From Candidatus Moraniibacteriota bacterium (lineage in GTDB: Bacteria; Patescibacteriota; Minisyncoccia; Moranbacterales; UBA11712): a stretch of DNA of 35,230 bases. Numbering within the stretch: the first letter of the stretch is position 1; the number at the start of each line of letters is the position of its first letter. The stretch covers positions 1 through 35,230 of the forward strand of contig JAUXSN010000028.1 of the NCBI GenBank assembly GCA_030679895.1, given 5' to 3'. The translations under genes and the position numbers were made by a program. Below are positions 13,092 to 32,349 of this stretch, in pieces. Below the pieces are notes generated by a model that made no database searches, was not told the origin of the DNA, and worked only from the letters and a program-made list of their open reading frames with translations.

Positions 13092-15308
13092 TTATTTGCA
13101 TTCCTCAAGATTATCTTGAACATCAAACTCCTTGCTTTCGGCCCACTTCTGGACGCCTTTCTCCCAGGCGCTGAATTGCGGATCTTTCTGCGGCGCCTTG
13201 GGAATATCTCCCCGGGGATTATCTTTATCAACCCAATAAAGAATTGAATGAGCAGAGAAGAATTTTTTCTTTCGTTTCTTTTTATCAGAAGGGCAATTGT
13301 CGTTAGCAAGGCAATATTTTCCGTCTCCAATCTTGCAAACAGTGACTTCCTTTTCTTCGCCCTGAATATTGCCGTCTAAAACGGCCTTTCCGGTTTTAAC
13401 ATCTTTTGGATCAGGAAATTTTTCAATAGCGGTATTAGCCAAAGCTTTATCCATAAATTCGCGCCAAATAGGGGCGGCAGTGAAAACTCCGTCAGCCCCT
13501 TGAGCCATTGGGGAATTATCATTATTTCCCGTCCAAACGCCGGCGACGAGTGAGGGGGTATATCCCATTGTCCAGCCGTCCCGCCATTCATTAGTAGTTC
13601 CGGTTTTAGCGGCCACCGGGCGATCATCGAAACGTAAAGGGGAGTTTGATCCAAAGACGGGCGCGCGGAGATGGTTCGTTGAAAGAATTGCATCGATTTG
13701 AGCGCAGACATCCGTGTCCAGGACTTTTTCTCCGGCTGTGTTTTCGGCTTGTTCTAAAATATTGCCCTTGGCGTCTTCTATTTTGAGAATAGCTGTCTTG
13801 TCGTGCCTGACGCCTTCAGCGGCGAAAGAGCCAAAAGCGGCGGTATGGTCCACCAGCTTCACCTCGCCTCCTCCAAGGACCAGGGAGAGGCCATAGCGGC
13901 CGCGATTTTTGAGAGTAGTGATTCCCATGGACTGGGCGGTGTTGATAGAATTGTCTACGCCGGCGAGATAAAGGGTTTTGACCGCCGGAATATTAAGTGA
14001 CATCGCCAGAGCGTCTTGCATTTTAACCGGTCCGCGGAAGTCATCGGAATAATTTTTAGGAGTATAGGGATTATCTTTGGTTCCAAAGTTTGTTTCCGTG
14101 TCAAAAAGAATAGTGTTGGGGGTGTATCCTTTTTTAAAGGCGGTCGCGTAAACATAGGGTTTAAAAGAAGATCCCGGCTGGCGATCCCGGATGGCGACGT
14201 TGACGTTGCCGTCGATGCTTTTGTCAAAATAGTCTTTCGATCCCACCATGGAAAGAATCTGCCCCGTTCTGGGGTCAATGGCGACCAGGGCGGCGTTTGA
14301 GAAGCGATATTTTTTTCCGTTCTGATCAACAACGCGCCGGACAACCTCCTCGGCGATCTGTTGCTTCGGCCAGTCGAGAGTGGTATATACTTTCATTCCG
14401 CCCTCTTCCACCTGCTGCTCCCCGTATTTAGCCACTAATTGCTCCTTAACATAAAGAACAAAGTGAGGAGCAGCGATTCTTTCCTGAAAAGGCCTTATTT
14501 CCGCCATAACGTCGAATTCTTTGGCTGATTGGGCCTGGCCCTGGGTGACGTAGCCAAGTTTGGCCATCTGATTGAGGACATACTCCTGACGGGCTTTCAG
14601 ATCTTCCTGATGGTCTCCGTAAGGCGAATAAAAGGTCGGCGCTTTAGGAAGGGAAGCGAGAAGCGCTGATTCAGCCAGTCCCAAGTTTTTGGCGTCTTTT
14701 CCGAAAAAAGTTTGAGCGGCGGCCTGAATGCCATAGGCGTTTGATCCGTAAGGAATTTCATTAAGATACATCTCAAGAATTTCATCTTTCGAAAACTTCT
14801 GCTCCAACTCAACCGAAAGAATAACCTCCTTCACTTTCCGGGTGAAAGTTTTTTCGGGGGTGAGGACCGAATTCTTGATCAGCTGCTGGGTGATAGTTGA
14901 CCCTCCTTGAGAAGCATTCCGGCCCAAAACATCGTAGATAGCCGCTCTGGCGATGGCCTTGAATTGGACGCCGTGGTGATTATAGAAATCCTGATCTTCG
15001 GCGGAAAGGGCGGCGGCTTGGATGGTTTTTCCCATTTCAGAAAGAGAAACTCGGGTGCGCTTTTCTTCGCCGTGAATTTCATAAAGCAGATGCTCTCCGG
15101 TGCGGTCGTAAATTTTGGTAGACTCGATCACTTGCCGGTTGTTCAATTTTCCCGGACTCGGCAGATCCTTGGCGTAATAGGCGAAAACACCGATGGAAAG
15201 AAGAAGAACCAAAACAAAAAGCCAAATCGCCAGCTTTAAAAGCTTTCGCCACCAGCGCCTTTTCGACTTTTTTAAGGCATTTTTAGTGTTATCAATAAGT
15301 GTTTTCAT
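13092..15308 (-). CDS. Class A penicillin-binding protein (transglycosylase/transpeptidase)
   Basis: SAEDQDFYNHHGVQFKAIARA, QGGSTITQQLIKN, PGSSFKPYVY, AAKTGTTNEWRDGW. Confidence 0.95.
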   Translation of the reverse strand: MKTLIDNTKNALKKSKRRWWRKLLKLAIWLFVLVLLLSIGVFAYYAKDLPSPGKLNNRQVIESTKIYDRTGEHLLYEIHGEEKRTRVSLSEMGKTIQAAALSAEDQDFYNHHGVQFKAIARAAIYDVLGRNASQGGSTITQQLIKNSVLTPEKTFTRKVKEVILSVELEQKFSKDEILEMYLNEIPYGSNAYGIQAAAQTFFGKDAKNLGLAESALLASLPKAPTFYSPYGDHQEDLKARQEYVLNQMAKLGYVTQGQAQSAKEFDVMAEIRPFQERIAAPHFVLYVKEQLVAKYGEQQVEEGGMKVYTTLDWPKQQIAEEVVRRVVDQNGKKYRFSNAALVAIDPRTGQILSMVGSKDYFDKSIDGNVNVAIRDRQPGSSFKPYVYATAFKKGYTPNTILFDTETNFGTKDNPYTPKNYSDDFRGPVKMQDALAMSLNIPAVKTLYLAGVDNSINTAQSMGITTLKNRGRYGLSLVLGGGEVKLVDHTAAFGSFAAEGVRHDKTAILKIEDAKGNILEQAENTAGEKVLDTDVCAQIDAILSTNHLRAPVFGSNSPLRFDDRPVAAKTGTTNEWRDGWTMGYTPSLVAGVWTGNNDNSPMAQGADGVFTAAPIWREFMDKALANTAIEKFPDPKDVKTGKAVLDGNIQGEEKEVTVCKIGDGKYCLANDNCPSDKKKRKKKFFSAHSILYWVDKDNPRGDIPKAPQKDPQFSAWEKGVQKWAESKEFDVQDNLEECK

Positions 15309-15371: not shown

Positions 15372-16022
15372 TCAAGTATTGCTATAGTTGACCAGCTCGA
15401 AGTTTTTTAGTAAATCCTTGAATTTAACGCTTCTTAATATTTTTAGTTCCTTTTCTCTCTGCTTATTATAACTCGAAATTGATTTCGGATCGAAATAGCC
15501 CGGATGGCAAAGAAGTTCCGTGACGCCTGAATAATCTTTTTGCAAGGCTTGAAACAAAACATGTTTGTATTCGACGTTCCACCACACAAGTCGGGAAGGC
15601 GTCCTTAAGCCAGCCTCCCTGATCGCAATTCTATTTTTATCGTTGATAGAGCGAATCGGCAAGTTATATTTTTTGGCCACCTCAATAATTTTTGGAAAAA
15701 TTTTCTGGATAAGATGGCAGTTTTTGTGGCCGTCAAGATGAGACGGCAATCTTCCGTAAAGCGACACGAATTTTCTTATTTGTCTTCCTATTTCTTTTTT
15801 AATTGCGGAATCCTCCAGATTTTCGGATAAGTCAAGGTGAAGGCCGATTGAAACCGGGTGCTTCCTGATGTCCTTTGATAAAGCGTGCTTTTCATCAACC
15901 AAGACCGATGTGCTCGTCACAATATTTCTGTCTGCGAGCTCCAAGATGCCCTTATTGAAATTTTCAGACAATCCGAAATCATCGGCATTTATAATAAGTT
16001 TTTCTCTTTTCGATCTCGGCAT
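15372..16022 (-). CDS. ChbG/YdjC-family carbohydrate deacetylase
   Basis: LIINADDFGLSENFNKGI, IGLHLDLSE, LPSHLDGHKNCH, ELLCHPGY motifs. Confidence 0.85.
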   Translation of the reverse strand: MPRSKREKLIINADDFGLSENFNKGILELADRNIVTSTSVLVDEKHALSKDIRKHPVSIGLHLDLSENLEDSAIKKEIGRQIRKFVSLYGRLPSHLDGHKNCHLIQKIFPKIIEVAKKYNLPIRSINDKNRIAIREAGLRTPSRLVWWNVEYKHVLFQALQKDYSGVTELLCHPGYFDPKSISSYNKQREKELKILRSVKFKDLLKNFELVNYSNT

Positions 16023-17439
16023 TTGTTTTATAGGATTTTATTATTCCCAATGAGTTCAAAAGCTTGATATGTTCGGAGTTCAGCGGATCATATTTACCGG
16101 CATCGAATTCAGAGATATTAATTTCTGTCTTTAACAAAAAATTCCAAAGCTTCATGTTCCCTTCACGGTAAATTATGTCCTTGGTGAAACAAATTCCGGG
16201 AGTGGAGCAGTCAGTGCCGCGAAAGGTCCGAACGCTTCTTTCCCAGGCTTCTCGAGCCGCTTCGGTCTTGGCTATGGCAGAATTTTCGCCGCCGATTAGT
16301 TTTAGTAGGAAAAAAATCGAATTGATTTCCTCATAAACCTGTCGGAAGTTTCTTTTTTCCCCGTCGCATCCCAGCGCCAGACAAACTGCCAGAAATCCGG
16401 GAAATCCGGAAAAATCGTCGAAGCTGTCGCGCACTAATTGCTCCTTTAAAGTAGCAAGGCCCTCCTCACTCTCCTCATACCTATCGAGACCCAAACTCAA
16501 AAGAGAAAAAGCACTTTTTTTTCCGTTAAATTGTCGCCTCACATGGGTTCCTATTTCGTGAACTATCAGCGCTCTTAAATCAGAGGAATAAAGATATTTT
16601 TTGTGAGGGATCCGAATCTTTTTTGTCGAAGGGTCGGTGCCTATGCTTATCGAACTGCTCTTAACAACAACCGCTTCCCATCCGGATATTCCTGCAAGAG
16701 ACACGGCTTTATTGAATATTTCGCAGATATTTTTGGCGTTATAAGGAGGTTTTCTGGCGAGAGCAGGTTTCAAAATGACCTGAAGCTCTCTTTGCAAATT
16801 TTTAAGTGTTTTTCCGAATAGGGATTTAGTTGGCAACTTGACGATTCGGTAATGCTTTGGGATTTTTCCCAGCCATTTTTCAATGAGCAATTCAAGCTTA
16901 GCGATTCCCCTTTTTGATATTTCCAGTCCTTTTCCCTTTTTTGCCTTGCGAAATTCTCTTTGCAGCCAGGCGGCCGTGTGCCCCTGAGCTTTTAAAGACG
17001 GATATCCGTATATTTTTTTGCAGCCAGAAATAAATCTGCTCCAATCCTTTGCTCGCGAGGCCTTCAAAATCTGAATTTCCGCAAGCTTCTCTTCTATTTT
17101 TTTCTGATAGGCGCGACGAATAAGGAGGTTTCTCTCATCGCTTAATATGGTGTTTAGCAAGCTCTTATGAGCCGCTTCCTTCGCATCCAGATGCTTTTTG
17201 TTGAGAAGGGGATAATCCAAAACAGGATTTTCAATTTTTCCTTCGGAAAAAAGCTTCCTTTGCTTTTCACGGAAATGATATTCTCCTTCAAAATATTCGT
17301 ATATTTGAAAAGAAGAAATCTTGGTAAATTGGGAAAACCACCCTTGGTCGAGGTGTTTTGGCGGACATTTTCGTGCAAATTTGTCATTTCTGGGAGTCAT
17401 TCCAAATTTTATTAAAAGGATGAAACATTCTAAAACCAT
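15979..17439 (-). CDS. DUF1704 (QEGLA-motif) family metallopeptidase; start possibly 17400
   Basis: LIVHEIGTHVRRQFNGK (HExxH, 16543-16560) and EEGLATLKEQLV (16453-16467) as in the DUF1704/flavohemoglobin-modulating QEGLA family. Confidence 0.8.
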   Translation of the reverse strand: MVLECFILLIKFGMTPRNDKFARKCPPKHLDQGWFSQFTKISSFQIYEYFEGEYHFREKQRKLFSEGKIENPVLDYPLLNKKHLDAKEAAHKSLLNTILSDERNLLIRRAYQKKIEEKLAEIQILKASRAKDWSRFISGCKKIYGYPSLKAQGHTAAWLQREFRKAKKGKGLEISKRGIAKLELLIEKWLGKIPKHYRIVKLPTKSLFGKTLKNLQRELQVILKPALARKPPYNAKNICEIFNKAVSLAGISGWEAVVVKSSSISIGTDPSTKKIRIPHKKYLYSSDLRALIVHEIGTHVRRQFNGKKSAFSLLSLGLDRYEESEEGLATLKEQLVRDSFDDFSGFPGFLAVCLALGCDGEKRNFRQVYEEINSIFFLLKLIGGENSAIAKTEAAREAWERSVRTFRGTDCSTPGICFTKDIIYREGNMKLWNFLLKTEINISEFDAGKYDPLNSEHIKLLNSLGIIKSYKTNAEIEKRKTYYKCR

Positions 17440-18184
17440 TTTTTTTCCTCAATTCTGATTTTATGAATGTTTTACTGACTTCGTTTGAGTCCGCGTTGAG
17501 AGGGGAGGGAGTTTTTGATAATTTTTTAGTAAACCATCGAGCGCCTGTATCTTTTTGAAAAATTGGAATTTTGAAAATCTTCGCATAGGTTGGTATTTTG
17601 TATTCCAACATACCTATATATTTCTTCTTCACAAGGCTATATTTTTCAAAAAAACTTCGGGTGAAGATTTGGAAGATAAAAAGGCAACAAAGAATCTTTT
17701 TGTCATAACCATATATTTTTTTTATGTGTTTTCGGAAATTGAGATAATTTTTCCTATGGATACTCCCGGGTTTTGTCCACATCCAACAATTTTCAAGGTC
17801 CTTATCAAGGCTTCTGAAGGCCGAAAAGTAAAGTTGGTTTCTTTTAGCATCGCGAAATATTTTTGCTAATTTGCCAAAAACCAGCATATCCCATTGAACA
17901 ACGGCGAGACTTTCCCAGGAAAGGTTTTTGCCTCGCTTTCTAAACCAATCCAGAAGTATTAAGTCTCCATTGATCCATTTCCACTTAGAATTTTTGAAAG
18001 GCGAAGCGTAGAAGTCATCCAGATATTCGCCTAAAATTTTTTTATAGCGATCCACTTTCTTTAAGTCGCCCCCGTATAATCCATATATTCTTAAACCAGG
18101 ATTATTTCTTTTTAAGAGCAGAAGATGGTTTTTGCAGATTAATGGTTTTTTATAAAACCAAAATAGAATTGCGAGCTCTTTCAT
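17384..18184 (-). CDS. Hypothetical, glycosyltransferase-like protein
   Basis: 266 aa inside a glycosyltransferase gene chain; LAVVQWDMLVF resembles a GT-A DxD region, weakly. Confidence 0.4.
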   Translation of the reverse strand: MKELAILFWFYKKPLICKNHLLLLKRNNPGLRIYGLYGGDLKKVDRYKKILGEYLDDFYASPFKNSKWKWINGDLILLDWFRKRGKNLSWESLAVVQWDMLVFGKLAKIFRDAKRNQLYFSAFRSLDKDLENCWMWTKPGSIHRKNYLNFRKHIKKIYGYDKKILCCLFIFQIFTRSFFEKYSLVKKKYIGMLEYKIPTYAKIFKIPIFQKDTGARWFTKKLSKTPSPLNADSNEVSKTFIKSELRKKNGFRMFHPFNKIWNDSQK

Positions 18185-18188
18185 GTTT

Positions 18189-19235
18189 TTATCTCCTTAT
18201 AATTTTCTTATAAAGCTGGATATACTTTTCCGCCATGACGGAACTGTCAAAGTTTTTTTCAGCGTATTTTCGGCATTCTTTTCTATCAAATCGGTCGATT
18301 TCTTTTGCTGCTTTAAGCCAATCTTCAAATTTGTTAGACATGCACAAGACTCGGGAATCCCTAAGGCGCTTGGGCAATAGTTGAATTTCTGAGCTTAGGA
18401 CAGGTGTGCCAGCGGCTAATGCTTCCATTACAATCAGCGGAAACAGTGTCAGCCTTGTTCTAATCAGAGACAAAAGAGCTTCGGCATTTTTCATGTACTC
18501 ATATAATTCGTGCTGGGGCATTTGGTCTTTGAATATGACTGTCTTGCCCAAATACGGTTTGATTTCCTTTTCAAAATACATTTTTCTTTCGGGGGTGTTT
18601 CCAATGCGCCCAATAATAACGAGTTTTTTTCCGGTTTTTTTGGCTATCCGCATAGCTAAATCGGCGCCTTTGTCTTCCCTTATCCTGCCCACAAATAGCA
18701 AAAATTTTCCCTTGTCTGTCGAATAACCCATCTTTGTTACGTCAATGCCGTTTTCAATCACTGCGGTGGCCTTGTTTTTTCCTGTTCTTCCGCTGGAGAT
18801 TGCAACAGTAAATATTCCGGCATTTTTGATTTGTTTGAATTCCGTGTTTTCAATTACATTGTGTAGCGTGAGAACGCAGGGTTTATTTAAAAATTTTGCC
18901 ACAGCATAGGCGCTTCTGTGAGCATGCAGATGAATGACATCGAAGTTATTTTGGTATTTTATAATTTCCAATTGGCTGGTGAAAATCAGATTTCTTCGAA
19001 ACACATCCGTTTGTTTCTTAAAATCGGGCATTCGCCAAAGGCTTTTTGGAAGAGTTGAAATATGTTTCGCATCAGTTTTCCAATCGGCCGGTGCGAACAA
19101 TGTAATATCCATTCCTTTTTTCGCGAGAGCGTTTGTCAGATGTTTGCACACGACTTCCGGCCCCCCTTCTTGCCCGAAGGGTGGAGCTATCATAGCTATT
19201 CTTATTTTTTGTGAATTGCGCTTATGAACCATCAT
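18189..19235 (-). CDS. Family 4 glycosyltransferase (paralog 1)
   Basis: IAMIAPPFGQEGGPEVVCKHLTNALAKKGMDITLFAPADW; FVGRIREDKGADLAMRIAKKTGKKLVIIG; IVMEALAAGTPVLSSE. Confidence 0.9.
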   Translation of the reverse strand: MMVHKRNSQKIRIAMIAPPFGQEGGPEVVCKHLTNALAKKGMDITLFAPADWKTDAKHISTLPKSLWRMPDFKKQTDVFRRNLIFTSQLEIIKYQNNFDVIHLHAHRSAYAVAKFLNKPCVLTLHNVIENTEFKQIKNAGIFTVAISSGRTGKNKATAVIENGIDVTKMGYSTDKGKFLLFVGRIREDKGADLAMRIAKKTGKKLVIIGRIGNTPERKMYFEKEIKPYLGKTVIFKDQMPQHELYEYMKNAEALLSLIRTRLTLFPLIVMEALAAGTPVLSSEIQLLPKRLRDSRVLCMSNKFEDWLKAAKEIDRFDRKECRKYAEKNFDSSVMAEKYIQLYKKIIRR

Positions 19236-19247
19236 GAGAAATGTTAA

Positions 19248-20300
19248 TTATATTTTCTTTAGTATTTTTTCGTAGAGCTCAATATATTTCTCAGCCATTG
19301 TGTCACTGTCGAAATGCATTTCGGCGTATTTGCGGCACTCTCTCCTGTTGAATTGTTGAGTATTTATCGTCGCGCTTACGAGGCTCCTTATATTATCGGA
19401 AAGAAATGCCGTTTTTTTGTTTTGTAAAAGTTTATCGAGCGGCGCTGTTTTTGTTCCGATAACGGGTGTTCCGCAAGCGAGTGATTCCGCCACTGACATA
19501 GGGCAAATTTCCGGCCTTCTTATTGGAAAAAGAAGCGCTTCCGCATTTCTGATATATTCAAATATTTGCTTGTTTGAAACTTCTTTCATAAGAATTATTT
19601 GTTTCCCGTCTACGAACGGCGCTATTTTGCTTTTATAGTAGCTTTGCCTTTTTTCCGAAAAACCGATTCGTCCAAAAATGAGAAGCTTCTTTTTTGCTCG
19701 TAGGGCGATTTGTATGGCTCGGTCAATTCCTTTTTGAGGATGGAGTCTTCCTATTGATACTAAATAACTTCCGTGCTCGAAAGACGGCTTGATTTCACTT
19801 ATTGGAACGCCGTTATAGATAAGAGCAGACGTACGGTTTTTACCCTTTTGATGTTTTGATAAAGCCACAGTGAATACCCCGGCCCTTTTTAGCATTTGAA
19901 AGTATGGGTTTGTTATGGGACTGTGAAATGAAAGCACGCACGGGTTTTTCGTATTCGAGCAAACTGCATAGGCGTGGCTTTGGAGATGCAAATGGACGAT
20001 ATCAAACTTATCTTGATAGTTTAGTACCTTTATTTGAGATGCATTACAATACGCTCTGATTGCAATTTTCGTGAGTTGGCTGAAATCATTCCTGCGCCTC
20101 AGGCTCTTTTGTAATGTTGGAATGTGCTTTGCCTTTGTTCTCCAGTCAGCCGGCGCAAAAAGGGTCACGTCAACACCTTTTTTTAAAAGGCCATTTGTCA
20201 GGTTCTGAACCATTACTTCCGGTCCTCCGGTGTCTCCGAACACTGGAGCAACCATAGCCACGCGAATTTTGCTCCTCCTTTTTTTCATAAGAGTCGTCAA
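19248..20300 (-). CDS. Family 4 glycosyltransferase (paralog 2)
   Basis: VAMVAPVFGDTGGPEVMVQNLTNGLLKKGVDVTLFAPADW; SIGRLHPQKGIDRAIQIALRAKKKLLIFG; SVAESLACGTPVIGTK. Confidence 0.9.
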   Translation of the reverse strand: MTTLMKKRRSKIRVAMVAPVFGDTGGPEVMVQNLTNGLLKKGVDVTLFAPADWRTKAKHIPTLQKSLRRRNDFSQLTKIAIRAYCNASQIKVLNYQDKFDIVHLHLQSHAYAVCSNTKNPCVLSFHSPITNPYFQMLKRAGVFTVALSKHQKGKNRTSALIYNGVPISEIKPSFEHGSYLVSIGRLHPQKGIDRAIQIALRAKKKLLIFGRIGFSEKRQSYYKSKIAPFVDGKQIILMKEVSNKQIFEYIRNAEALLFPIRRPEICPMSVAESLACGTPVIGTKTAPLDKLLQNKKTAFLSDNIRSLVSATINTQQFNRRECRKYAEMHFDSDTMAEKYIELYEKILKKI

Positions 20301-21256
20301 TTAAAGACCTCCATAAACTCGTTGAAATTTTTTTCCTTGATTGCTTCCGTTCCGACGATTTGCAGCAAATCGAAACCCGGAGTTGTATTGATTTCAATCA
20401 GTTTTGGTTTTCCGAAGTTGTCAAAAATAAAATCAATTGAATAATGAGCGTGGGGGAAAATCGACAGTTTTCGAACAACTTTCTCGGTTATTCTTCTGAC
20501 GGATTGGGGGATAAATTTAAGGGGAACCAAAATAGGGGTCGCGCCTTGGTGAAAATTCGTAAACAAAGATCCTTTTCGAGCAATTCGGGAAAGAGCATAA
20601 ATGGGCTTGTGATTCATAAAAACAATCCTTAAGTCGGCAACTTCTCTCTCTTTTGAAAATCCGGGAATGCCTTTCTCGCTTTTCACAAATTCCTGGAGAA
20701 GAAAAGGATAGGCCAACTTTGAATTTTTTAGCCTTGTCCTTTCTGTAATAATGATTCCGAATCCTCCCGATCCAAAAAATGGCTTAGCAACTGCTTTTTG
20801 CGAACGAATCTTCCCGATATTTTTCAGCAAATCAGCTTTAGACTTTATCACGAAAGATCTTGGCATGAATTCGCCAAAGATGAGATATTGGTTCAACTTG
20901 CTGTTGAGAAGTGTTTTGAAAAGCGGGTCATTAAAAATGGTTATTCTTTGCTGAATCTCTAATTTTAAATCTAGTAAGGAATAGTCGTATTTTCCTATTA
21001 CTTTATCAAAAATCAAATCCGGTTTGATCGGTTTTTTTACTTTTATCCACTTTCCATCACGGAATGTCCAAGTTTTTTTGAAGTGAAATTTTGACATATC
21101 AAACCACCCCAAGCTGGCACGATGGAATTCAACACCTCTTTTCCGACCCCTCTCATACAAATCCTCGAATGATTCGCGGGTTGGAATGGAATTTTCCAGA
21201 GGAATCTTTTTATTCCAATCGTCTCCCTTATAAATAACAACAGCTATCTTTTTCAT
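20297..21256 (-). CDS. ATP-grasp ligase (RimK/glutathione synthetase-like fold)
   Basis: VAKPFFGSGGFGIIITE, FLLQEFVKSEKG, VADLRIVFMNHKPI, HYSIDFIFDNFGKPKLIEINTTPGF. Confidence 0.85.
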   Translation of the reverse strand: MKKIAVVIYKGDDWNKKIPLENSIPTRESFEDLYERGRKRGVEFHRASLGWFDMSKFHFKKTWTFRDGKWIKVKKPIKPDLIFDKVIGKYDYSLLDLKLEIQQRITIFNDPLFKTLLNSKLNQYLIFGEFMPRSFVIKSKADLLKNIGKIRSQKAVAKPFFGSGGFGIIITERTRLKNSKLAYPFLLQEFVKSEKGIPGFSKEREVADLRIVFMNHKPIYALSRIARKGSLFTNFHQGATPILVPLKFIPQSVRRITEKVVRKLSIFPHAHYSIDFIFDNFGKPKLIEINTTPGFDLLQIVGTEAIKEKNFNEFMEVFN

Positions 21257-21270
21257 GGATTTTTTTATTA

Positions 21271-22680
21271 TTACTTAGCCATTCTGGCAGGATCTATAAG
21301 AAATCTGTGCAGATCGCGATGGCCGATTATTAATGGATTTTTCAAATGGGAGCGGTCTATGACAGAAACTTTTGTGAGAACCTCTGTGTTGTCAATGATT
21401 ATCTTTATCTTGACCATGGGTCGATAAGTCGTTCCGTGCGAAGAATGAATGATGGCCGTATCCTCAAGGTCTGGAATATTTTTGTCTTTGAAAAATTTTT
21501 CCCTATCTTGCTTTTCCAATCCTTTTATTTTTTCGTAATCAATACCAAGTTTTTCAAACTCGTTCATGGTCGATGAAAACCCCAGGGATTCAGCAAGGAG
21601 TTTATCCATAGAAGAAAAGTCGGCACCGCTGTCTATTTTTGCTTCAACTTCAATCTCCTTCTCGTCCTTTCCAATGAGTTTCACTTTTTCCTTCAGGCCG
21701 ATAATTCTTTTTCCCGAAATATCCTCGATTTCTTCTTCGATTTCACCTCCGAAAAGGTTCATGCCGACTGATACGCCCTTTTCGACCGTTTTTATTTTGA
21801 GCCCTTCAACACGGCGGAGGCGCCCCAGGAGGCCGTCGTGATTGGCTACCTGGATGGAAAGGCCCGGACGGGCGTTGAGTTCGAGGAACACCGGACCAAG
21901 GTCGCGGTCAATGGCCACGTCGGCGCCTAAAAACCCAAGCCCGGAAATTTCCTGGGTCCGAACGGCAAGAGTCAAAATAGTTTTCCAATAGGGGATCTTG
22001 ATTCCGGAAAGAAGCAGGCGGGTCCCGGGAACACATTCGATAAGCTTGTTTTTTCCGAAAACGGCCGTGGTAGTGACTCCTGTCGCCAAATCAATCCCCA
22101 CCCCGATCGCTCCTTGCTGAAGATTGGCTTTTCCGTCTGAAACTTTGGTCGGAAGGCGAAGCATGGCCATCACCGGAACTTTATTATAAATAATCACCCG
22201 GATGTCGGGGATGCCCTTATAAGCATAAGGCTTGAAAAGCTTCAAAAGCTTCATCCTCTCTTCAAAAAAAGCAATATCGGGAACGCCGGACAAAGAAAAA
22301 CTGCCATCAAGAATGTTTCTGATGTGGGTTTTAAGATCATCAACAGTAACCAGAGAGCCATCGGCCTTGATCCAAACATTGAAAAGATTCTTTTTCTTTC
22401 CGTAAACGACTAAAATTCCCTCTCCGCCGAAGCCTCTATTCGGCTTCAAGACAAAACTTTCCGGAAGGGCTGCCCAGTCAAAATTCTCCAGTTCGTCAAC
22501 ATTTTTTATCTTGCCGATTAATTCAGGAACAGGAATGTCGGCTTTTTTGAGCATCCGCTTGCTCCGGAGCTTGTCATCGGCCAGCCTTTTTGCCCGGCGA
22601 AGATTGTTGGGACGGATAAATTCCAAATTACGGGCGTTCATCCCCAAAATTTTTCGGCTGTTTCGAAAAAATTGAATCAT
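21271..22680 (-). CDS. RimK-related alpha-L-glutamate ligase-like ATP-grasp fused to C-terminal RimB/retropepsin-like domain
   Basis: N-terminal NLEFIRPNNLRRAKRLADDKLRSKRML...VLKPNRGFGGEGI...NLQQGAIGVGIDLATG...FLELNARPGLSIQ; C-terminal IIGLKEKVKLIG...AKIDSGADFSSMDKLLA...LIIGHRDL. Confidence 0.88.
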   Translation of the reverse strand: MIQFFRNSRKILGMNARNLEFIRPNNLRRAKRLADDKLRSKRMLKKADIPVPELIGKIKNVDELENFDWAALPESFVLKPNRGFGGEGILVVYGKKKNLFNVWIKADGSLVTVDDLKTHIRNILDGSFSLSGVPDIAFFEERMKLLKLFKPYAYKGIPDIRVIIYNKVPVMAMLRLPTKVSDGKANLQQGAIGVGIDLATGVTTTAVFGKNKLIECVPGTRLLLSGIKIPYWKTILTLAVRTQEISGLGFLGADVAIDRDLGPVFLELNARPGLSIQVANHDGLLGRLRRVEGLKIKTVEKGVSVGMNLFGGEIEEEIEDISGKRIIGLKEKVKLIGKDEKEIEVEAKIDSGADFSSMDKLLAESLGFSSTMNEFEKLGIDYEKIKGLEKQDREKFFKDKNIPDLEDTAIIHSSHGTTYRPMVKIKIIIDNTEVLTKVSVIDRSHLKNPLIIGHRDLHRFLIDPARMAK

Positions 22681-23333
22681 CGAGGCTTGATTATTTGCCT
22701 AAAGCGGAAGTATTCGATAAGACGAAGCCCGGTCCATTTGCCCAGGAAGATATTGGCGGGGAGGGTAAGCAAGCTGATCCAGGGATAATGCAAAATGTAT
22801 CTTATTAATATATCCCAACTGGCGATGTAATATCCGACAACGGAGATAACAAGAGTTTCGATAGCCAGCACCACGGCGGCTCGTCCGCCTTTTTCAATTT
22901 GAACAGCGACGAATTTCTCAACCAAAGTGATCATGATGAGAATCGGGAAAATGGAAACGCTGGCGAGACCCGTTCGGTTATAGATCCCGCCGATTATGAG
23001 AAGCGCCAAAATGGAAAATCCGACGATGGTGATCATGATGGCGACTCTGGGGAGATAAAGCAGCCGGAATTGTTTGAGGAGGAGGCGGGTGAGGGTTCCG
23101 AAAATAATGACGGTTATGAAAATCGTGATTCCATAACGGATTTCATTGGTGGCGAGGAACGCGAAAGTGATGATGGCCGGGGTATAGATGCCGAAAGCCT
23201 TGATTCCGACGACTTGCCGGAAAAAAGCGATCACGGTCACGATGATCGGCAGGATTAAAACTAGAATCAGCGTATCAAGAGGGACGCCGTTAGATAGGGC
23301 GAGGGATATAAATTGGTTCATCCCGTTAGGCAT
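22677..23333 (-). CDS. 7TM protein of the type usually fused to an inactive transglutaminase
   Basis: Polytopic; LDTLILVLILPIIVTVIAFFRQVVGIKAFGIYTPAIITFAFLATNEIRYG; ATGA overlap with the RimK-like gene. Confidence 0.75.
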   Translation of the reverse strand: MPNGMNQFISLALSNGVPLDTLILVLILPIIVTVIAFFRQVVGIKAFGIYTPAIITFAFLATNEIRYGITIFITVIIFGTLTRLLLKQFRLLYLPRVAIMITIVGFSILALLIIGGIYNRTGLASVSIFPILIMITLVEKFVAVQIEKGGRAAVVLAIETLVISVVGYYIASWDILIRYILHYPWISLLTLPANIFLGKWTGLRLIEYFRFRQIIKPR

Positions 23334-23400
23334 TAATATTTATACTTCTTTATCAGTCGAGAATCACCGAGACATCCAAACAGTGAATGCCTAACGGGAT
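23320..23400. repeat. 15-bp perfect inverted repeat spanning the 7TM start codon
   Basis: ATCCCGTTAGGCATT (23320-23334) / AATGCCTAACGGGAT (23386-23400), 51-nt spacer. Confidence 0.95.
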
Positions 23401-23404
23401 TCAT

Positions 23405-23455
23405 AAAAAAAATCCCCAAAACTGATTTAATATTACTTAATTTTAGGGGTTTTGT
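23405..23455 (-). terminator. Imperfect terminator-like hairpin downstream of ruvC
   Basis: Minus strand: AAAACCCCTAAAA...TTTTGGGGATTTTTTTT; stem has single-base bulges, with a U tract. Confidence 0.5.
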
Positions 23456-23487
23456 CAATCCAAAAGGCGAATAATAAAGCCGAACTT

Positions 23488-24923: not shown

Positions 24924-25697
24924 ATGTTGCTTGGCAATGCCACTATCCATAAAAATTACAACTCCCAAAACCTTGTTGATATGTGGGGCGATTTGATAGA
25001 TTGGAAGAAAAGGAGAGAGGGGGAAAATGGTTTTCTAATAGATCAACTCCGGAAACACAACGTTCGTAGAGTTTTCGATGCCGCTTTGGGCGACGGGTGC
25101 GATTCAATTTATTTACTCCAGAAAGGTTTTGACGTGACGAGCAATGAAATTGATAAAACGTTTTTAGCAAAAGCTCTTCAAAACGCGAAAGCCAATAATG
25201 TCCAGTTAAAAATTACAAGCCTTGACTGGCGCGAACTAGATAAAGAACTAGAGATAGAATCTTTTGACGCAGTTATTATTCTCGGAAATTCCCTAACCTA
25301 CTTGTTTACAAAAGAAACCCGGTTGAAAGCGCTTGAACAATTTCGCCGAATATTGAAAAAAAGTGGGATTCTGATTATTGATGAAAGAAACTGCCAGAAT
25401 ATATTGGACAATCGCGATGAAATCCTCAAGGGAAATTTCAATTATTCCGGAAAATATGTCTATTGTGGAGAAAAAGTTCATGGCCGGCCGATCGAAATAT
25501 CTGATGACAAAGTGAAATTCGAATACACAGACGAAAGGACGAATAAAATAGCTTACCTTGCCATGTATCCGTGGAAGCGCGATGAGCTCAAGAAGCTTTT
25601 GCAAGAAGCTGGTTTTGAACTAATAGAACAATACAGCGACTATCTGCCAAAAGAAAATCCTGATGCTGATTTTTATCAATACGTTTGCGTAAAATAA
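24924..25697 (+). CDS. Class I SAM-dependent methyltransferase (glycine/sarcosine N-methyltransferase-like)
   Basis: VRRVFDAALGDGCDSIYLLQKGFDVTSNEID; SFDAVIILGNSLTYL; LKKSGILIIDERN. Confidence 0.8.
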   Translation: MLLGNATIHKNYNSQNLVDMWGDLIDWKKRREGENGFLIDQLRKHNVRRVFDAALGDGCDSIYLLQKGFDVTSNEIDKTFLAKALQNAKANNVQLKITSLDWRELDKELEIESFDAVIILGNSLTYLFTKETRLKALEQFRRILKKSGILIIDERNCQNILDNRDEILKGNFNYSGKYVYCGEKVHGRPIEISDDKVKFEYTDERTNKIAYLAMYPWKRDELKKLLQEAGFELIEQYSDYLPKENPDADFYQYVCVK

Positions 25698-25712
25698 TTC
25701 TAGCGCGTTAAA

Positions 25713-25739
25713 ATACGGACTCAAATTTTGAGTTCGTAT
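25713..25739. repeat. Hairpin-forming near-perfect palindrome
   Basis: ATACGGACTCAAA-T-TTTGAGTTCGTAT: 13-bp arms with one G/T-type mismatch; no T tract. Confidence 0.8.
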
Positions 25740-25786
25740 GCAATGCACTGGTATCGCATATTCCTTAAAAAAGAGAGGGCACGTTG

Positions 25787-27253
25787 ATGAAAGTCGCTTT
25801 AATTAGAACGGCTATCGTTCCAGATAAAGAAAGACATCTGGCCTACGGTTCCAATATTTCTCCAATGGCAACTTCCGTGGCGCTTCTCGGTGCCTGCCTA
25901 AGGGAAAAATTTCCGGAGGTCAAAATTTCGATTCTCAACGAAAACTGGCCGCCGGAAAAAATCGCAAAAAGGGCCGCCAAATTCGATCTCGTGGGTTTTT
26001 CCACGACATATGCTACTCACGGACCTTCGTGCGAAATCGCACGCAAAATAAACCAACTTAATCCGGAGGTTGGAATCATCTTTGGCGGAATCGATGCCGC
26101 AAACAAAGGCTCGCTGATTCTCAAGAGCCATTTTTACATTAATTATGTTTGCGGAAACCAAGATAATCCATGGGGTGAAAATGTGATCACCACCCTCGCA
26201 TTGTCTGCGCCTGAAAATGTATCTAATATCTGGCTTCGCAAGCACGGCAAGGTTATCTTCACTGACTATAATTACGATCTGGGAAATTTACCGCTTTGGG
26301 ACTTCGGCCAGTTCAAAGAACACGATGAGCGCATCCAGCCATATCTCAAGCCGGCTGGCGATTGGGATCTTCCGCATCATTCCGTTTTTTCCTGGCGCGG
26401 ATGCCTAAAATCGCTTCGCCGCGGCAGATGCGCTTTTTGCACTTCCGCCGTTGACTCTCCAAACTTCATGCCTCCCGAAAATTTCTGGAGACAGATTCTT
26501 CATCTCCAGGAAAATGAATTCCCAGGCGTAAAGATGAATCTGTACCTCGGAGATAATCACACGCCACCGGGCTGGGTGAGAAAACTGGCGGAAAAAATGC
26601 CAGCCGGAATCAATGCTCGCTTTCGGGCATACGGTTGGCTACCGGAGATCATCAGCCTTAACCCAGCACAGCTTAAAGGTTTTGCTCAAGACCTTCACGC
26701 CATGGGTTTTTATAACCTGTTTTATGGAGTGGAAAGCTTTGACCGTGAGGTTCTCTCTTCAACCAACAAAGATTTTGTGTCCGTTCCAGAAATGGCCCGC
26801 GTGATAACTTCCTTATTTAATCAGGGAGGCGTTCGCGCTACCATCGCGATCATTGTCGGTCTCCCCGGAGAAAACGAGGAATCGCTCAAGACAACTTTAG
26901 CGTCCTTTCGGGAACTTTTTGCTCTAGTTCCCAACGGAGCAATCGAGCGGGTTTATCTTTCCCATCTTGTCGTTCTCCATGGCAGCGCAATAATGGAGAA
27001 TATGAAACGCAATTTGTCGCTCTGTGTTGATTACGAGCGGCTAACCGGAAAAGTTTTCGCCACAGATGACGACCCGCCGGTAGATCTGCTTACTGCTCTT
27101 CATCTCAAGTACTTCACCGGGATAACTCCGGCGATCGCCAACGTCTATCATGATCGCATCGTAGATGTATCGCTTGAATCCGGTATTCCTCGGCAACAAA
27201 TCGGAGGATTCGAGGAACGACATATCATCGATAACATCTTTAGCCAACTGTAG
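25787..27253 (+). CDS. B12-binding-type radical SAM protein
   Basis: N-terminal VGFSTTYATHGPSCEIARKINQLNPEVGIIFGGIDA; cysteine motif WRGCLKSLRRGRCAFCTS; YGVESFDREVLSSTNKDF; ATIAIIVGLPGENEESLK. ATG at 25787; listed 25784 is TTG. Confidence 0.85.
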   Translation: MKVALIRTAIVPDKERHLAYGSNISPMATSVALLGACLREKFPEVKISILNENWPPEKIAKRAAKFDLVGFSTTYATHGPSCEIARKINQLNPEVGIIFGGIDAANKGSLILKSHFYINYVCGNQDNPWGENVITTLALSAPENVSNIWLRKHGKVIFTDYNYDLGNLPLWDFGQFKEHDERIQPYLKPAGDWDLPHHSVFSWRGCLKSLRRGRCAFCTSAVDSPNFMPPENFWRQILHLQENEFPGVKMNLYLGDNHTPPGWVRKLAEKMPAGINARFRAYGWLPEIISLNPAQLKGFAQDLHAMGFYNLFYGVESFDREVLSSTNKDFVSVPEMARVITSLFNQGGVRATIAIIVGLPGENEESLKTTLASFRELFALVPNGAIERVYLSHLVVLHGSAIMENMKRNLSLCVDYERLTGKVFATDDDPPVDLLTALHLKYFTGITPAIANVYHDRIVDVSLESGIPRQQIGGFEERHIIDNIFSQL

Positions 27254-29208: not shown

Positions 29209-30075
29209 ATGAATAATAAAAAACAGAAAAAAACTAAGAAGGTTTTTAATCCGTCATGGGCTCATTGGCAAAAACTATGGGCAGAGGTAGAATCTCCGTG
29301 GCGGCCGAGCAAAAAGGATATTTTGTTTTGCGAAAAAATGATCAAAATGGTTTTGCGATATGAAAAAAATCCTAAAGCGTTGCTGCTTGGCTCAACTCCT
29401 GAAATTCGCGACCTTTTGGCTAAATATAAGATCGAGACAACCTTAGTTGATGTGAATTCTTCAATGAAAAAAGCGATGGATAAATTGCTGAAGCGAAAAA
29501 ACAGGAAAGAGAAATTGATTGTTGCGGATTGGGTGAAAATGAAGCTTCCAAAAAGTTATTTTAATTTGGCATTTAGCGATGGCTGTTTGACTAATATATC
29601 GCTTGCCACATGGAGGAATCTTTTTACTAATGTCAATCAAGCTCTCAAAAAGAATGGTTTGCTGTATTCAGGTAGCTGGGTTTACAGAGTTTTAAAACCA
29701 TTAAGCTTTGAAGATTTGATTGAAAAATATAAGAAAAATCCAAAATACTTTGAGGACTTCAAGAACAGGGTCCATTCTTTGCATAGTCTCTATTTGAATC
29801 CCGGACTTTATGACCGCAGAAAAAAAGAATATAACTTTTTTAAAGTTATGAAAGGCATAGAATTATTTGTGAAAAGAGGTGATATCAGCCAAAAAGATTT
29901 CAGAAACTTGCAATGGACAAAAATAGAAATGGGGCCATATATTGAAATTGCCTTTGACGATGCTGAAGAGCATGATAGCTATCTGAATAAATTTTATAAA
30001 ATTGTCGCTGTTTTTCAGGATAAATCTCATCCGCTCATGGCTTTCCGCCGCGATTATATTTTAGCTAAAAAATAG
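29209..30075 (+). CDS. SAM methyltransferase-like protein (paralog 1)
   Basis: ALLLGSTPEIRDLLAKYKIETTLVDVNSSMKKAM...LIVADWVKM...LKKNGLLYSGSWVY. Confidence 0.7.
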   Translation: MNNKKQKKTKKVFNPSWAHWQKLWAEVESPWRPSKKDILFCEKMIKMVLRYEKNPKALLLGSTPEIRDLLAKYKIETTLVDVNSSMKKAMDKLLKRKNRKEKLIVADWVKMKLPKSYFNLAFSDGCLTNISLATWRNLFTNVNQALKKNGLLYSGSWVYRVLKPLSFEDLIEKYKKNPKYFEDFKNRVHSLHSLYLNPGLYDRRKKEYNFFKVMKGIELFVKRGDISQKDFRNLQWTKIEMGPYIEIAFDDAEEHDSYLNKFYKIVAVFQDKSHPLMAFRRDYILAKK

Positions 30076-30086
30076 TTTATCTTAAT

Positions 30087-30962
30087 ATGGCAAAAAAGTT
30101 ATACAATTCTTTGTGGTTTCAGTTCTGGAAGATTTGGAATAAGATCGGTCCGCCTTGGAGACCATCTGTGAAAGAAATAAAATGGTGGGAAAAGAAAATT
30201 GTTGAGCTGAATAAGAGCAATAAAAATCTAAAGGCTTTGGTGCTAGGCTCTACCCCGGAAATTCGCGATATGCTCGCAAAAAACAAAATTGATACGACAC
30301 TTCTTGATGCCAACCAGTCAATGTATGAGGCAATGAACAAGCTGATAAAAAAGAAAAACAACAGAGAAAAGCTAGTTGTTGGAAATTGGCTCGAGATGGA
30401 GAAAGTTTTAGGGGAAAATAGATTTGATTTCGTAATCGGTGATGCACCCCACTGCAATTTGGCTTATAAAACATGGCCAAGGTTTTTTGATGGGCTGTAT
30501 AATGTTCTCAAGCCTGGAGGATACTTTATGGTTGGGAGCATAACTTTGGAATTCAATGAAAGGCAGACTATTGAGGATCTATTTAATAAATATAAAAGAA
30601 AGAAAAAATATTTCAAGAATTTTAAGAATAGGCTCTGGGAACTTTATCAATTGGCTGATGAGAAAGGAGTTTGGACGAATGAGGTAAGAGGGTTTTCTTA
30701 TGAGGCAGTTAGAAAATTATTAAAGCGGGAAGGAGCGAAAAGAAAAATAGGACTTAAAGAACTTGATGAAAATCTTTGGTTCTTGAGTGGGGATATCAAC
30801 GGAGAAGCTCTTGGCAATTATGTCGAAGTTATGCCAACGCTTGAGGAGCAGATCAATCTTCAGTCCAAATGGTTTTATCTCGATGAATTATATTTGATAC
30901 TCGATCATTCTGCTTTTAAAATCCGCCGGGCGATGATTTTAAAAAGCAAGAGGTTAAAATAA
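30087..30962 (+). CDS. SAM methyltransferase-like protein (paralog 2)
   Basis: ALVLGSTPEIRDMLAKNKIDTTLLDANQSMYEAM...LVVGNWLEM...LKPGGYFMVGSI. Confidence 0.7.
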   Translation: MAKKLYNSLWFQFWKIWNKIGPPWRPSVKEIKWWEKKIVELNKSNKNLKALVLGSTPEIRDMLAKNKIDTTLLDANQSMYEAMNKLIKKKNNREKLVVGNWLEMEKVLGENRFDFVIGDAPHCNLAYKTWPRFFDGLYNVLKPGGYFMVGSITLEFNERQTIEDLFNKYKRKKKYFKNFKNRLWELYQLADEKGVWTNEVRGFSYEAVRKLLKREGAKRKIGLKELDENLWFLSGDINGEALGNYVEVMPTLEEQINLQSKWFYLDELYLILDHSAFKIRRAMILKSKRLK

Positions 30963-30978
30963 TTACTAAAAATAAATT

Positions 30979-32349
30979 ATGGAACGAAAAAAAATAACCA
31001 CGGAATTTCCCGACGCAAAAAAATGGGGAGGTCAGATTCAAAATTGGATGGATGGATTGCCGACCGACATCTACGCGAGATACGATTCAACCGAATTAAG
31101 ATCGCGGGAAAAACAATTGGCGGAAATGATCGGAACTTCCGATGCGGCGCTTTTCAATTCAGGAATGGGCGCGATTGTGACGGCAATGGAGGCTGAAGAA
31201 TTAAAATCCGGTGACGTTGTTTTGTGCGGAAAGGATGTCTACAGTGAAACGGCAAAATATTTTAAGGATTTAAAAAAACGGGGTATAAGAATTATTTTAA
31301 TTGATTCCGGAAATGCCGAAGAAATTGAACAAGCTATTGGAAGAGAAAGGCCTCGCCTCATCGTGCTGGAGAGTACCGGCAACTCGCCGGAAATGCCAGT
31401 TTGTGATCTCAAAAGGTTGGGAAAAAACGCGAAAGAAGCAAATAACTTTTACCACGCTGAATTAAATCCGAAAAAATCTTTGAAGCTTTATCTTGAAAGA
31501 CATGAGCTACTGAAAAAATTGCCGGAGGATTTTCAGGAAGGATTGTTGCAAAATATTGAAGAATTCAGGAAGGGTCAAAATCCTTTTGTGTTTAGAGATG
31601 CTGTCAAGAAATTTGAGAAACTTCTACAGACACCCACGAGGTCAATCGCCGTAAAGGGCATTGCAGAGATAGCAAAATTTATCTCTAATAGAAGCAGAGA
31701 AAAATTGTCTCTCATTGTTGATAATACGTTATCCTCCCCTGCCATCCGCAATCCTTTTAAAGAATTGGAGGGAAGCGGTGTGGAGATGGTGGTCGTGGAG
31801 AGTGGAACTAAGCATTATCAAAAAGGACAGGACAAAATTACTCTAGGAATCGCTTATTCTAATAAGGGAGAAAAGATAGAAAGAATCAGAGCTGAAAGGG
31901 CAAAGCTCGGAACATATCTTCAGCCCGTGGCGGAGAAAGAAATCCCTACTGATATTGCCGAAGCTATGCCCGAAATCATGAAGCGTCACGGAGGAAATGC
32001 GCTCACGCTCGCACGAATACTAGAAAAATCCGGGAACGTTTTGGATGTTGGACATCCCAATTTGGAAAAACACAAAAATTCCGAAATCGCCAAAGAAATC
32101 GCGCCTGAAGGATTAGTCAGCGTTTTTTACATTCAGGTTCCTGATGCCGAAAAATTCGTAGGCAAAGTAAAAGAATTAGGCGGGGATAGCATCGGAATCG
32201 GCGGAAGCTTCGGCCATCCCAAGACCTGGCTGTTTAATCTGGGAGAAAATAATGTTCGCATTGCAGCTGGGAGCGAAAGTCCGGAAGAATTTGAGAAAAT
32301 TTTAGATATTTTTAAACAAGCGGTGGCACAAATTAATGAAGATAAATAG
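30979..32349 (+). CDS. Cys/Met metabolism-type PLP-dependent enzyme with internal insertion
   Basis: DAALFNSGMGAIVTAM, SLIVDNTLSSPAIRNP, VVVESGTKHYQKGQDKITLG (PLP Lys). Confidence 0.8.
   Translation: MERKKITTEFPDAKKWGGQIQNWMDGLPTDIYARYDSTELRSREKQLAEMIGTSDAALFNSGMGAIVTAMEAEELKSGDVVLCGKDVYSETAKYFKDLKKRGIRIILIDSGNAEEIEQAIGRERPRLIVLESTGNSPEMPVCDLKRLGKNAKEANNFYHAELNPKKSLKLYLERHELLKKLPEDFQEGLLQNIEEFRKGQNPFVFRDAVKKFEKLLQTPTRSIAVKGIAEIAKFISNRSREKLSLIVDNTLSSPAIRNPFKELEGSGVEMVVVESGTKHYQKGQDKITLGIAYSNKGEKIERIRAERAKLGTYLQPVAEKEIPTDIAEAMPEIMKRHGGNALTLARILEKSGNVLDVGHPNLEKHKNSEIAKEIAPEGLVSVFYIQVPDAEKFVGKVKELGGDSIGIGGSFGHPKTWLFNLGENNVRIAAGSESPEEFEKILDIFKQAVAQINEDK

Follow-up and report, generated by a model that had tools for sequence, protein, structure and literature searches.

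A compact Rlo-like ligase–retropepsin core with additional ATP-grasp and MATCAP genes in a Moranbacteria contig

In Pseudomonas, the Rlo system influences biofilms, the shape of the cells and their tolerance to antibiotics (PMC12239564). Its retropepsin RloA cleaves runs of at least eight glutamates, and an rloA triple mutant is rescued by loss of rloB or rloC (PMC12239564). RloB matches were 96% proteobacterial in the study of Lormand et al., 2025 (PMC12239564). RimB and RimK, together with active RimBK hybrids, make and cut poly-α-L-glutamate (Little et al., 2025; PMC11957791), and animal enzymes of the MATCAP/TMCP family act both as detyrosinases and as deglutamylases (Nicot et al., 2023; PMC10499314). 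The chemistry published for all three families (ATP-grasp ligases, retropepsins and MATCAP) concerns poly-glutamate chains (PMC12239564, PMC11957791, PMC10499314).

The gene string and its borders

The window analysed here is a stretch of 35,230 nucleotides of a Moranbacteria contig (Patescibacteria, candidate phyla radiation), from a tiny genome. It carries eight consecutive minus-strand ORFs, whose coordinates agree with those of the initial annotation (Table 1). The spacing between the ORFs ranges from −44 to +14 bp, and the four reported overlaps (22677/22680, 20297/20300, 17384/17400 and 15979/16022) are confirmed. The start codon at 20300 is TTG, while 17400 is an in-frame ATG within a longer ORF opening at 17439. 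Pfam supports the family labels of seven of the eight genes, namely the YdjC, MATCAP/DUF1704, two GT4, two ATP-grasp, retropepsin and 7TM assignments; HMM searches thus bear out ATP-grasp, retropepsin and DUF1704 alike. The exception is the 'GT-like' protein, whose label finds no backing in Pfam or PDB.

Table 1. Features of the gene string and its borders
Feature	Coordinates	Strand	Evidence
Candidate sigma-70 promoter of the cluster	23430..23458	-	TTGACA-17-TAATAT, 10/12 matches
RloB-like 7TM membrane protein without extracytoplasmic inactive-transglutaminase domain	22677..23333	-	PF14402 (7TM_transglut) 1.4e-30
RloC-type ATP-grasp (residues ~17-292) fused to RloA-type retropepsin (~326-466)	21271..22680	-	PF14397, PF05618
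RimK-like second ATP-grasp ligase, 'GSHl' subtype A	20297..21256	-	PF08443 32.2 bits (cut-off 21), GSH-S_ATP 4.4e-9
GT4 glycosyltransferase a, accessory	19248..20300	-	PF00534 6.9e-20, PF13439 7.8e-11
GT4 glycosyltransferase b, tandem paralogue of a	18189..19235	-	PF00534 9.1e-17
266-aa protein, probable passenger	17384..18184	-	no Pfam or PDB match
MATCAP/DUF1704 zinc carboxypeptidase family member, HExxxH and EEG motifs	15979..17400	-	PF08014 1.4e-26
YdjC/ChbG-type deacetylase, accessory	15372..16022	-	PF04794 1.7e-40
Class A penicillin-binding protein (PBP), 3' border of the variable interval	13092..15308	-	PF00912 1.7e-63, PF00905 1.2e-17

A class A PBP gene locates 63 bp downstream of the string on the same strand and is probably on the same transcript. 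The string as initially annotated ended one gene before it. At the other end, sigma-70-like sites of the candidate promoter's quality occur 17 times in the region, where chance alone predicts 14.7. A sister locus (L200) has the same −35 and spacer, with TAAGAT as its −10.

The Rlo-like core compared with described systems

On the basis of its sequence, the core represents a divergent relative of the rlo operon of Pseudomonas. As in P. aeruginosa rloABC, a 7TM RloB, an ATP-grasp RloC and a retropepsin RloA are encoded together, with the 7TM domain (PF14402) adjoining the ATP-grasp gene (PF14397). The window's RloB-like protein, however, has only 218 aa. Against the RloB model, which has 508 residues, it matches only at 305–507 and scores 81 bits where the cut-off is 900; the C-terminal membrane part alone is covered, and comparison with this model revealed that the inactive transglutaminase domain of the Pseudomonas protein is absent. 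The AF2 model is all-helical (pLDDT 86), and a fold search gave no significant solved match, only weak RnfA/NqrD-like ones (E >= 0.58). Homology of RloB with CapC/PgsC, a poly-γ-glutamate synthase subunit, is not supported: comparison of the RloB profile with a CapC protein gave a probability of 0.1. PF14102 (CapC/PgsC) is not found in the genome, which sets the locus apart from PgsBCA/CapBCA.

The fusion protein contains, in one ORF, an ATPgrasp_ST domain (PF14397, 1.1e-68) and a Zn_protease retropepsin domain (PF05618, 3.6e-7). It also matches RloA3 (1.6e-8) and TIGR02291 (1.6e-90), the latter placing the RloC domain in an α-L-glutamate-ligase-like family. By alignment to PDB 9g58 (numbering offset 20), the KxDSG, YRP and DRS positions of the retropepsin domain correspond to K46, D48, R114 and R137 of RloA, and the catalytic Asp and the poly-Glu-binding Lys/Arg at these four positions are present. 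In contrast to the secreted RloA of Pseudomonas, this domain has no signal peptide of its own and sits C-terminal to the ATP-grasp domain. The window further differs from rloABC by extra ligases, MATCAP, GT4 and YdjC genes, and by its patescibacterial host. RimB/RimK also pair a poly-α-L-glutamate ligase with a retropepsin eraser, and a fused form is known in RimBK. The RimBK hybrid has an N-terminal protease followed by a RimK ligase, whereas the window's protein runs from ligase to protease, its ligase is of the RloC type and it has a membrane partner; it is not a RimBK.

Conserved and variable genes among relatives

We surveyed 143 genomes around the window, with 112 RloB loci and 88 complete intervals from RloC::RloA to the next class A PBP gene. 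The compact fused Rlo form is present in 123 of the 143 genomes, and RloB is immediately followed by RloC::RloA in 111/112 loci, an order that is not due to chance. The ligase–peptidase core noted in the initial annotation is real as well as conserved, and it is kin to the published Rlo/Rim systems. One to four additional ATP-grasp ligase genes precede the PBP gene in 84/88 complete intervals. Among ORFs of at least 150 aa, ligase-type ORFs (ATP-grasp, some with a Mur domain) make up 168/234 between the RloC–RloA gene and the PBP gene versus 12/736 flanking ORFs, in genomes that are related to each other, so that a p-value is not literal. In other Patescibacteria classes, an ATP-grasp gene lies within three genes of the rlo core in 34/35 loci outside the order, where rlo loci mostly have no ruvC/pbp linkage. 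The conserved theme across loci is ligases and peptidases.

The window's second ligase exceeds the curated cut-off for the RimK ATP-grasp domain (PF08443), and its closest solved relative is a RimK α-L-glutamate ligase (6.7e-7); it falls outside the RimK subfamily TIGR00768 (39.6 against a cut-off of 143.4). GSHl subtype A has a GT4 as the immediate next gene in 15/23 cases. In some relatives, an ATP-grasp–Mur ligase fusion occupies the slot between the core and the PBP gene.

The MATCAP protein reaches 93.8 bits with PF08014 (cut-off 27) and matches human MATCAP (7z5g) by sequence at 5.1e-4. Residues H294, E295, H299 and E326, numbered in the longer ORF that opens at 17439, are invariant in 11 relatives. 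When its model was searched with Foldseek, the leading fold matches were other zinc peptidases, DUF885 and ACE among them; no match fell below E = 0.001, and human MATCAP was absent from the best 50. It shares a Pfam family with the bacterial QEGLA/DUF1704 proteins but lies outside that equivalog (TIGR02421, 86 bits against 338). PF08014 is found in 25/143 relatives, and MATCAP is absent in most core-bearing relatives. In 17 of the 25, it lies inside or beside the RloC::RloA–PBP interval. The link between DUF1704 and ATP-grasp genes cited in the initial annotation holds here. In one relative, RloC, RloA and MATCAP are fused in a single ORF of 944 aa, and a further MATCAP, away from rlo, adjoins two RimK-like genes. 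An iterated HMM places MATCAP in 22/88 intervals, a count including longer HExxH proteins. Because both of the longer proteins that were scanned failed Pfam, we use the PF08014-based count.

The two GT4s share 45% identity (blastp 5.7e-113) and resemble MshA/BshA-type enzymes in a profile search. The deacetylase is a member of the YdjC superfamily only, scoring 130.7 bits against 227 for the ChbG equivalog (chitin-disaccharide deacetylase). GT4 genes occur in 14/88 intervals and YdjC in 10/88, both together only in the window, and the accessory set of the window's genus-mate differs. Thus the neighbourhood survey retains the RloB/ligase pair and does not support the suggested merger of the core with a glycan module as a conserved trait; the full eight-gene composition is a combination of one lineage. 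Since GT4 and YdjC are not found together elsewhere, we discarded the idea of a mycothiol- or bacillithiol-like logic that would combine GT4, deacetylase and ligase. For the 266-aa protein, Pfam gave nothing up to E = 10 and PDB nothing credible; it carries no glycosyltransferase signature, and that reading is unsupported. Its homologues are scattered in unrelated neighbourhoods, and it is a probable passenger.

Among ten genomes of related orders that have no rlo, eight carry ruvC and the PBP gene within two genes of each other and one more within six. Since these genes were already neighbours there, the rlo–PBP adjacency reflects ancestral synteny and is no evidence of function. As an argument for a functional partnership, the PBP was rejected on this ground and on the missing link outside the order, where a PBP gene is nearby in only 1/36 rlo loci.

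A possible writer and eraser of acidic peptides

Gene content, fusion and conservation are demonstrated by the comparisons above. From the sequences, we give about an even chance to a membrane-associated writer/eraser, built on the Rlo-like core, for an acidic oligopeptide made by ATP-grasp enzymes. Judging from their families, the RloC domain and the RimK-like ligase would extend the C-terminus or carboxyl group of an acceptor residue by residue in the cytoplasm; by analogy with the RimK, RloA and MATCAP literature, glutamate is the most likely amino acid. The 7TM RloB may anchor the ligase or handle the product at the (inner) membrane. Conserved catalytic residues and published relatives suggest that the fused retropepsin cleaves poly-acidic stretches internally and that MATCAP trims C-terminal residues, so that the chain would be edited or recycled. 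In this lineage, the two GT4s and the YdjC deacetylase might conceivably act on a sugar part of the acceptor. No run of seven Glu codons is encoded in the genome, and any poly-Glu substrate would therefore need to be made by enzymes. The fused compact form, the extra ligases and the occasional tubulin-tail-type carboxypeptidase suggest that the product is an acidic peptide, and such loci supply minimal enzyme sets, one of them reduced to a single protein, that may allow its biochemical identification.

The ligases could instead work on the cell wall, attaching amino acids to precursors of the peptidoglycan stem or cross-bridge before the neighbouring class A PBP polymerises them. The PBP gene directly downstream in 88 loci, the shape, ampicillin and osmotic phenotypes of P. 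aeruginosa rlo mutants, the ATP-grasp–Mur fusion of some relatives, and archaeal pseudomurein peptides, made by ATP-grasp and Mur ligases (PMC11915815), would all fit. However, the adjacency is ancestral (ruvC and PBP genes within six genes in 9/10 rlo-less genomes) and nearly confined to the order, and several loci for Mur ligases are already present in the genome, which leaves cell-wall modification unlikely. A side chain built on a soluble cofactor or glycoside would resemble methylofuran, whose poly-Glu is made by the glutamate ligases MyfA/MyfB (PMC8141765); the pairing of GSHl subtype A with GT4 and the MshA/BshA-like GT4s agree with such a coenzyme. We regard it as quite improbable, given the membrane partner RloB in 112 loci, the absence of cofactor-core genes from the interval and the almost nil co-occurrence of GT4 and YdjC.

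Modification and export of a surface glycan by all eight genes, as the initial annotation envisaged, would account for the presence of ligases beside two GT4s and a YdjC deacetylase in what is probably one operon. Its ligase–peptidase part stands, whereas the glycan genes vary and occur in a minority of intervals; relatives exist with the full core and zero glycan genes, the third 'GT' lacks support, and polymerase, flippase and acceptor genes are absent from the eight-gene set. We consider this model very unlikely. Equally little speaks, in our estimate a shade less, for a graspetide-like or other RiPP, with ATP-grasp enzymes crosslinking a ribosomal precursor that peptidases release. Graspetide loci with zincin peptidases are on record in the candidate phyla radiation (PMC8939145), and the off-cluster MATCAP beside two RimK-like genes also has an ABC exporter-like set next to it. 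Yet no convincing precursor ORF lies between the tightly packed cluster genes, RloC falls in TIGR02291, and the core travels with RloB, not with a peptide gene.

Returning to the writer/eraser, we tentatively raise a further reading, rather doubtful at present, in which the locus would be a self-contained bacterial counterpart of the tubulin-tail code: ATP-grasp enzymes write acidic or capped tails on a membrane-linked acceptor, and MATCAP and the retropepsin erase them. The likeness to MATCAP/TMCP acting opposite TTL/TTLL ligases consists in shared membership of the peptidase family, including the HExxxH and EEG motifs, and in a location beside ATP-grasp ligases with weak TTL matches. In contrast to the tubulin system, there is no tubulin, and the bacterial subfamily has a long helical N-terminal region. 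If true, the opposition of MATCAP and ATP-grasp known from microtubules would also exist in the candidate phyla radiation, and these loci may reveal the ancestral MATCAP target before tubulin. In the 944-aa RloC–RloA–MATCAP fusion the two are even joined in one protein.

Gene content of the cluster

All eight minus-strand ORFs of the initial annotation were found at their positions, densely packed with gaps of -44 to +14 bp, and a ninth gene on the same strand, encoding a class A penicillin-binding protein (PBP), lies 63 bp downstream. By HMM search, curated models confirmed seven of the eight proposed family labels, whereas the 266-aa protein matches no known family. Judging by its named relatives, the organism belongs to Candidatus Moranbacteria (Patescibacteria).

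Features of the cluster and the window flanks
Feature	Coordinates	Strand	Assignment	Basis
Eight-ORF cluster	15372-23333	minus		
Gene 1 (5' end)		minus	7TM_transglut (RloB-type) membrane protein	curated models
Gene 2	21271-22680	minus	single protein, RloC-type ATP-grasp domain and RloA-type retropepsin domain	curated models
Gene 3		minus	RimK-like ATP-grasp protein	curated models; closest solved relative RimK
Genes 4 and 5		minus	GT4 glycosyltransferases, paralogues of each other (45% identity)	curated models
Gene 6		minus	266-aa protein without known family	
Gene 7		minus	MATCAP/DUF1704 metallopeptidase	curated models
Gene 8 (3' end)		minus	YdjC-type deacetylase	curated models
Inverted repeat	23320-23400		perfect 15-bp repeat ATCCCGTTAGGCATT, 51-nt loop	
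ruvC-rloB intergenic region	23403-23458		promoter-like TTGACA-17-TAATAT overlapping terminator-like hairpin CCCCTAAAA/TTTTGGGG-T8	
Gene pair	24924-27253	plus	glycine/sarcosine N-methyltransferase-like gene and radical SAM protein	
Methyltransferase-like group	29209-33226		three related proteins (288, 291, 296 aa) around a PLP-dependent cystathionine-synthase-like enzyme	translations judged by eye
Glycine-rich ORF	23-679		218 aa, internal run of about 24 glycine residues	

Conserved core and variable accessories

RloB was found in 123 of the 143 genomes searched around the window. Its absence in several genomes of the order is due to contig breaks, and three such loci (L180, L186, L199) keep cluster genes beside the PBP gene. 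The ligase-peptidase core proposed initially held in the gene-neighbourhood survey: the fusion of ligase and retropepsin (RloC::RloA) is the next gene after RloB in 111 of the 112 loci examined, the one exception being truncated by a contig end. A downstream same-strand PBP gene was reached in 88 loci, and in 84 of these the interval holds between one and four additional ATP-grasp genes, either RimK-like, GSH-synthetase-like or fused to a Mur ligase. Ligase-type ORFs (at least 150 aa) account for 168/234 inside the interval versus 12/736 outside, the latter 12 being Mur-ligase-type; the genomes are kin, so the Fisher value is not literal.

The PBP is a tempting functional partner because P. 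aeruginosa rlo mutants show cell-wall-like phenotypes (PMC12239564). In ten control genomes from other orders without RloB, however, ruvC and the PBP gene lie within two genes in eight and within six in one more. This adjacency is older than rlo or independent of it, and we therefore do not count it as functional evidence. Outside the order (Woesebacteria, Collierbacteria, Dojkabacteria and others), ruvC is nearby in 9/36 rlo loci and the PBP gene in 1/36, yet an ATP-grasp gene persists within three genes in 34/35. The conserved unit is thus RloB, RloC::RloA and additional ligases.

MATCAP belongs with the rlo set, though it is not always present. PF08014 occurs in 25/143 genomes, and in 17 of these, from several families and one other order, the gene is inside or beside the rlo interval. 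Our own model detected a MATCAP-type gene nearby in 8/36 loci outside the order. One 944-aa ORF (L244) combines ATPgrasp_ST (2.5e-74), Zn_protease (5.6e-9) and MATCAP (8.4e-12), and an off-cluster MATCAP adjoins two RimK-like ligases in one genome.

The glycan module, initially read as merged with the core, did not prove a regular part of the set. GT4 occurs in 14/88 intervals and YdjC in 10/88, and only the window has both. One RimK-like ligase subtype pairs with GT4 in 15/23 cases. In the available stretch of the window's genus-mate, two GSH-like ligases and one RimK-like ligase follow the core. The glycan genes are accessories, and relatives of the 266-aa protein occur solely in unrelated neighbourhoods.

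The variable slot of relatives also holds two related proteins without a Pfam match, L082:8649-9440 (263 aa) and L174:3787-4593 (268 aa), each with a GT4 gene, and a recurring 853-aa protein (L049:4464-7025) in which an ATP-grasp domain is joined to the middle and C-terminal domains of a Mur ligase. Some RloB versions carry a PKD domain ahead of the 7TM part, with no transglutaminase match (L243:8473-10026, 517 aa; L250:1072-2706, 544 aa).

Peptidase active sites and the putative product

The window retropepsin domain retains equivalents of P. aeruginosa RloA K46, D48 (catalytic), R114 and R137 (alignment to PDB 9g58, consistent with a numbering offset of 20). Among published alanine mutants, R114A and R137A cause the greatest damage (PMC12239564). 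The window MATCAP matches human MATCAP at the sequence level and has HExxxH and EEG motifs as in the human enzymes; H294, E295, H299 and E326 are retained in 11 relatives. Among the top 50 Foldseek hits of its structure model (mean pLDDT 83), human MATCAP is not listed; the best are other zinc peptidase folds, none below E = 0.001.

Judged from sequence, the cluster is not an rloABC operon by strict definition because the RloB transglutaminase domain and a secreted RloA are both absent. The RimBK hybrid, too, is distinct: its domains stand in another order than those of RloC::RloA, and its ligase is of a different type. Most likely, the cluster works like these systems. RloA and RimB cleave poly-glutamate (PMC12239564, PMC11957791), poly-alpha-L-glutamate is the product of RimK, and RimB-RimK hybrids with protease activity occur (PMC11957791). 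Loss of RloA proteases is rescued by losing rloB or rloC (PMC12239564), and MATCAP-family enzymes remove C-terminal tyrosine and posttranslational poly-glutamate from tubulin (PMC10499314). No run of seven glutamates is encoded in the window's genome, so a poly-glutamate chain would need enzymatic synthesis. Together with this literature, it suggests that a membrane-associated system would write an acidic peptide, which an endopeptidase and a carboxypeptidase would edit. Beyond the observed gene content, fusion, motifs and conservation, we infer glutamate as substrate, the acceptor, the role of RloB and the trimming of one product by both peptidases.

Lormand et al. (PMC12239564) assigned 96% of RloB hits to Proteobacteria. 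In the literature searched, whose coverage is incomplete, we found no account of the wide Patescibacteria spread, the near-universal RloC::RloA fusion, the extra ligases or the MATCAP fusion.

Upstream DNA and window flanks

The inverted repeat, with an RNA fold z-score of -4.8, overlaps the start annotated for RloB. One further element with identical ends lies elsewhere in the genome, and a sister locus has a similar repeat at another position. The window's repeat resembles a small palindromic element of the dispersed kind rather than a regulator. The promoter-like site between ruvC and rloB has the same -35 and spacer in sister locus L200, which also carries a similar hairpin. The plus-strand gene pair lies beyond a TrmB-type regulator upstream of ruvC, and its radical SAM protein weakly matches B12-binding radical SAM families. 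The glycine run may reflect a genuine low-complexity linker or else a repeat introduced by sequencing or assembly.
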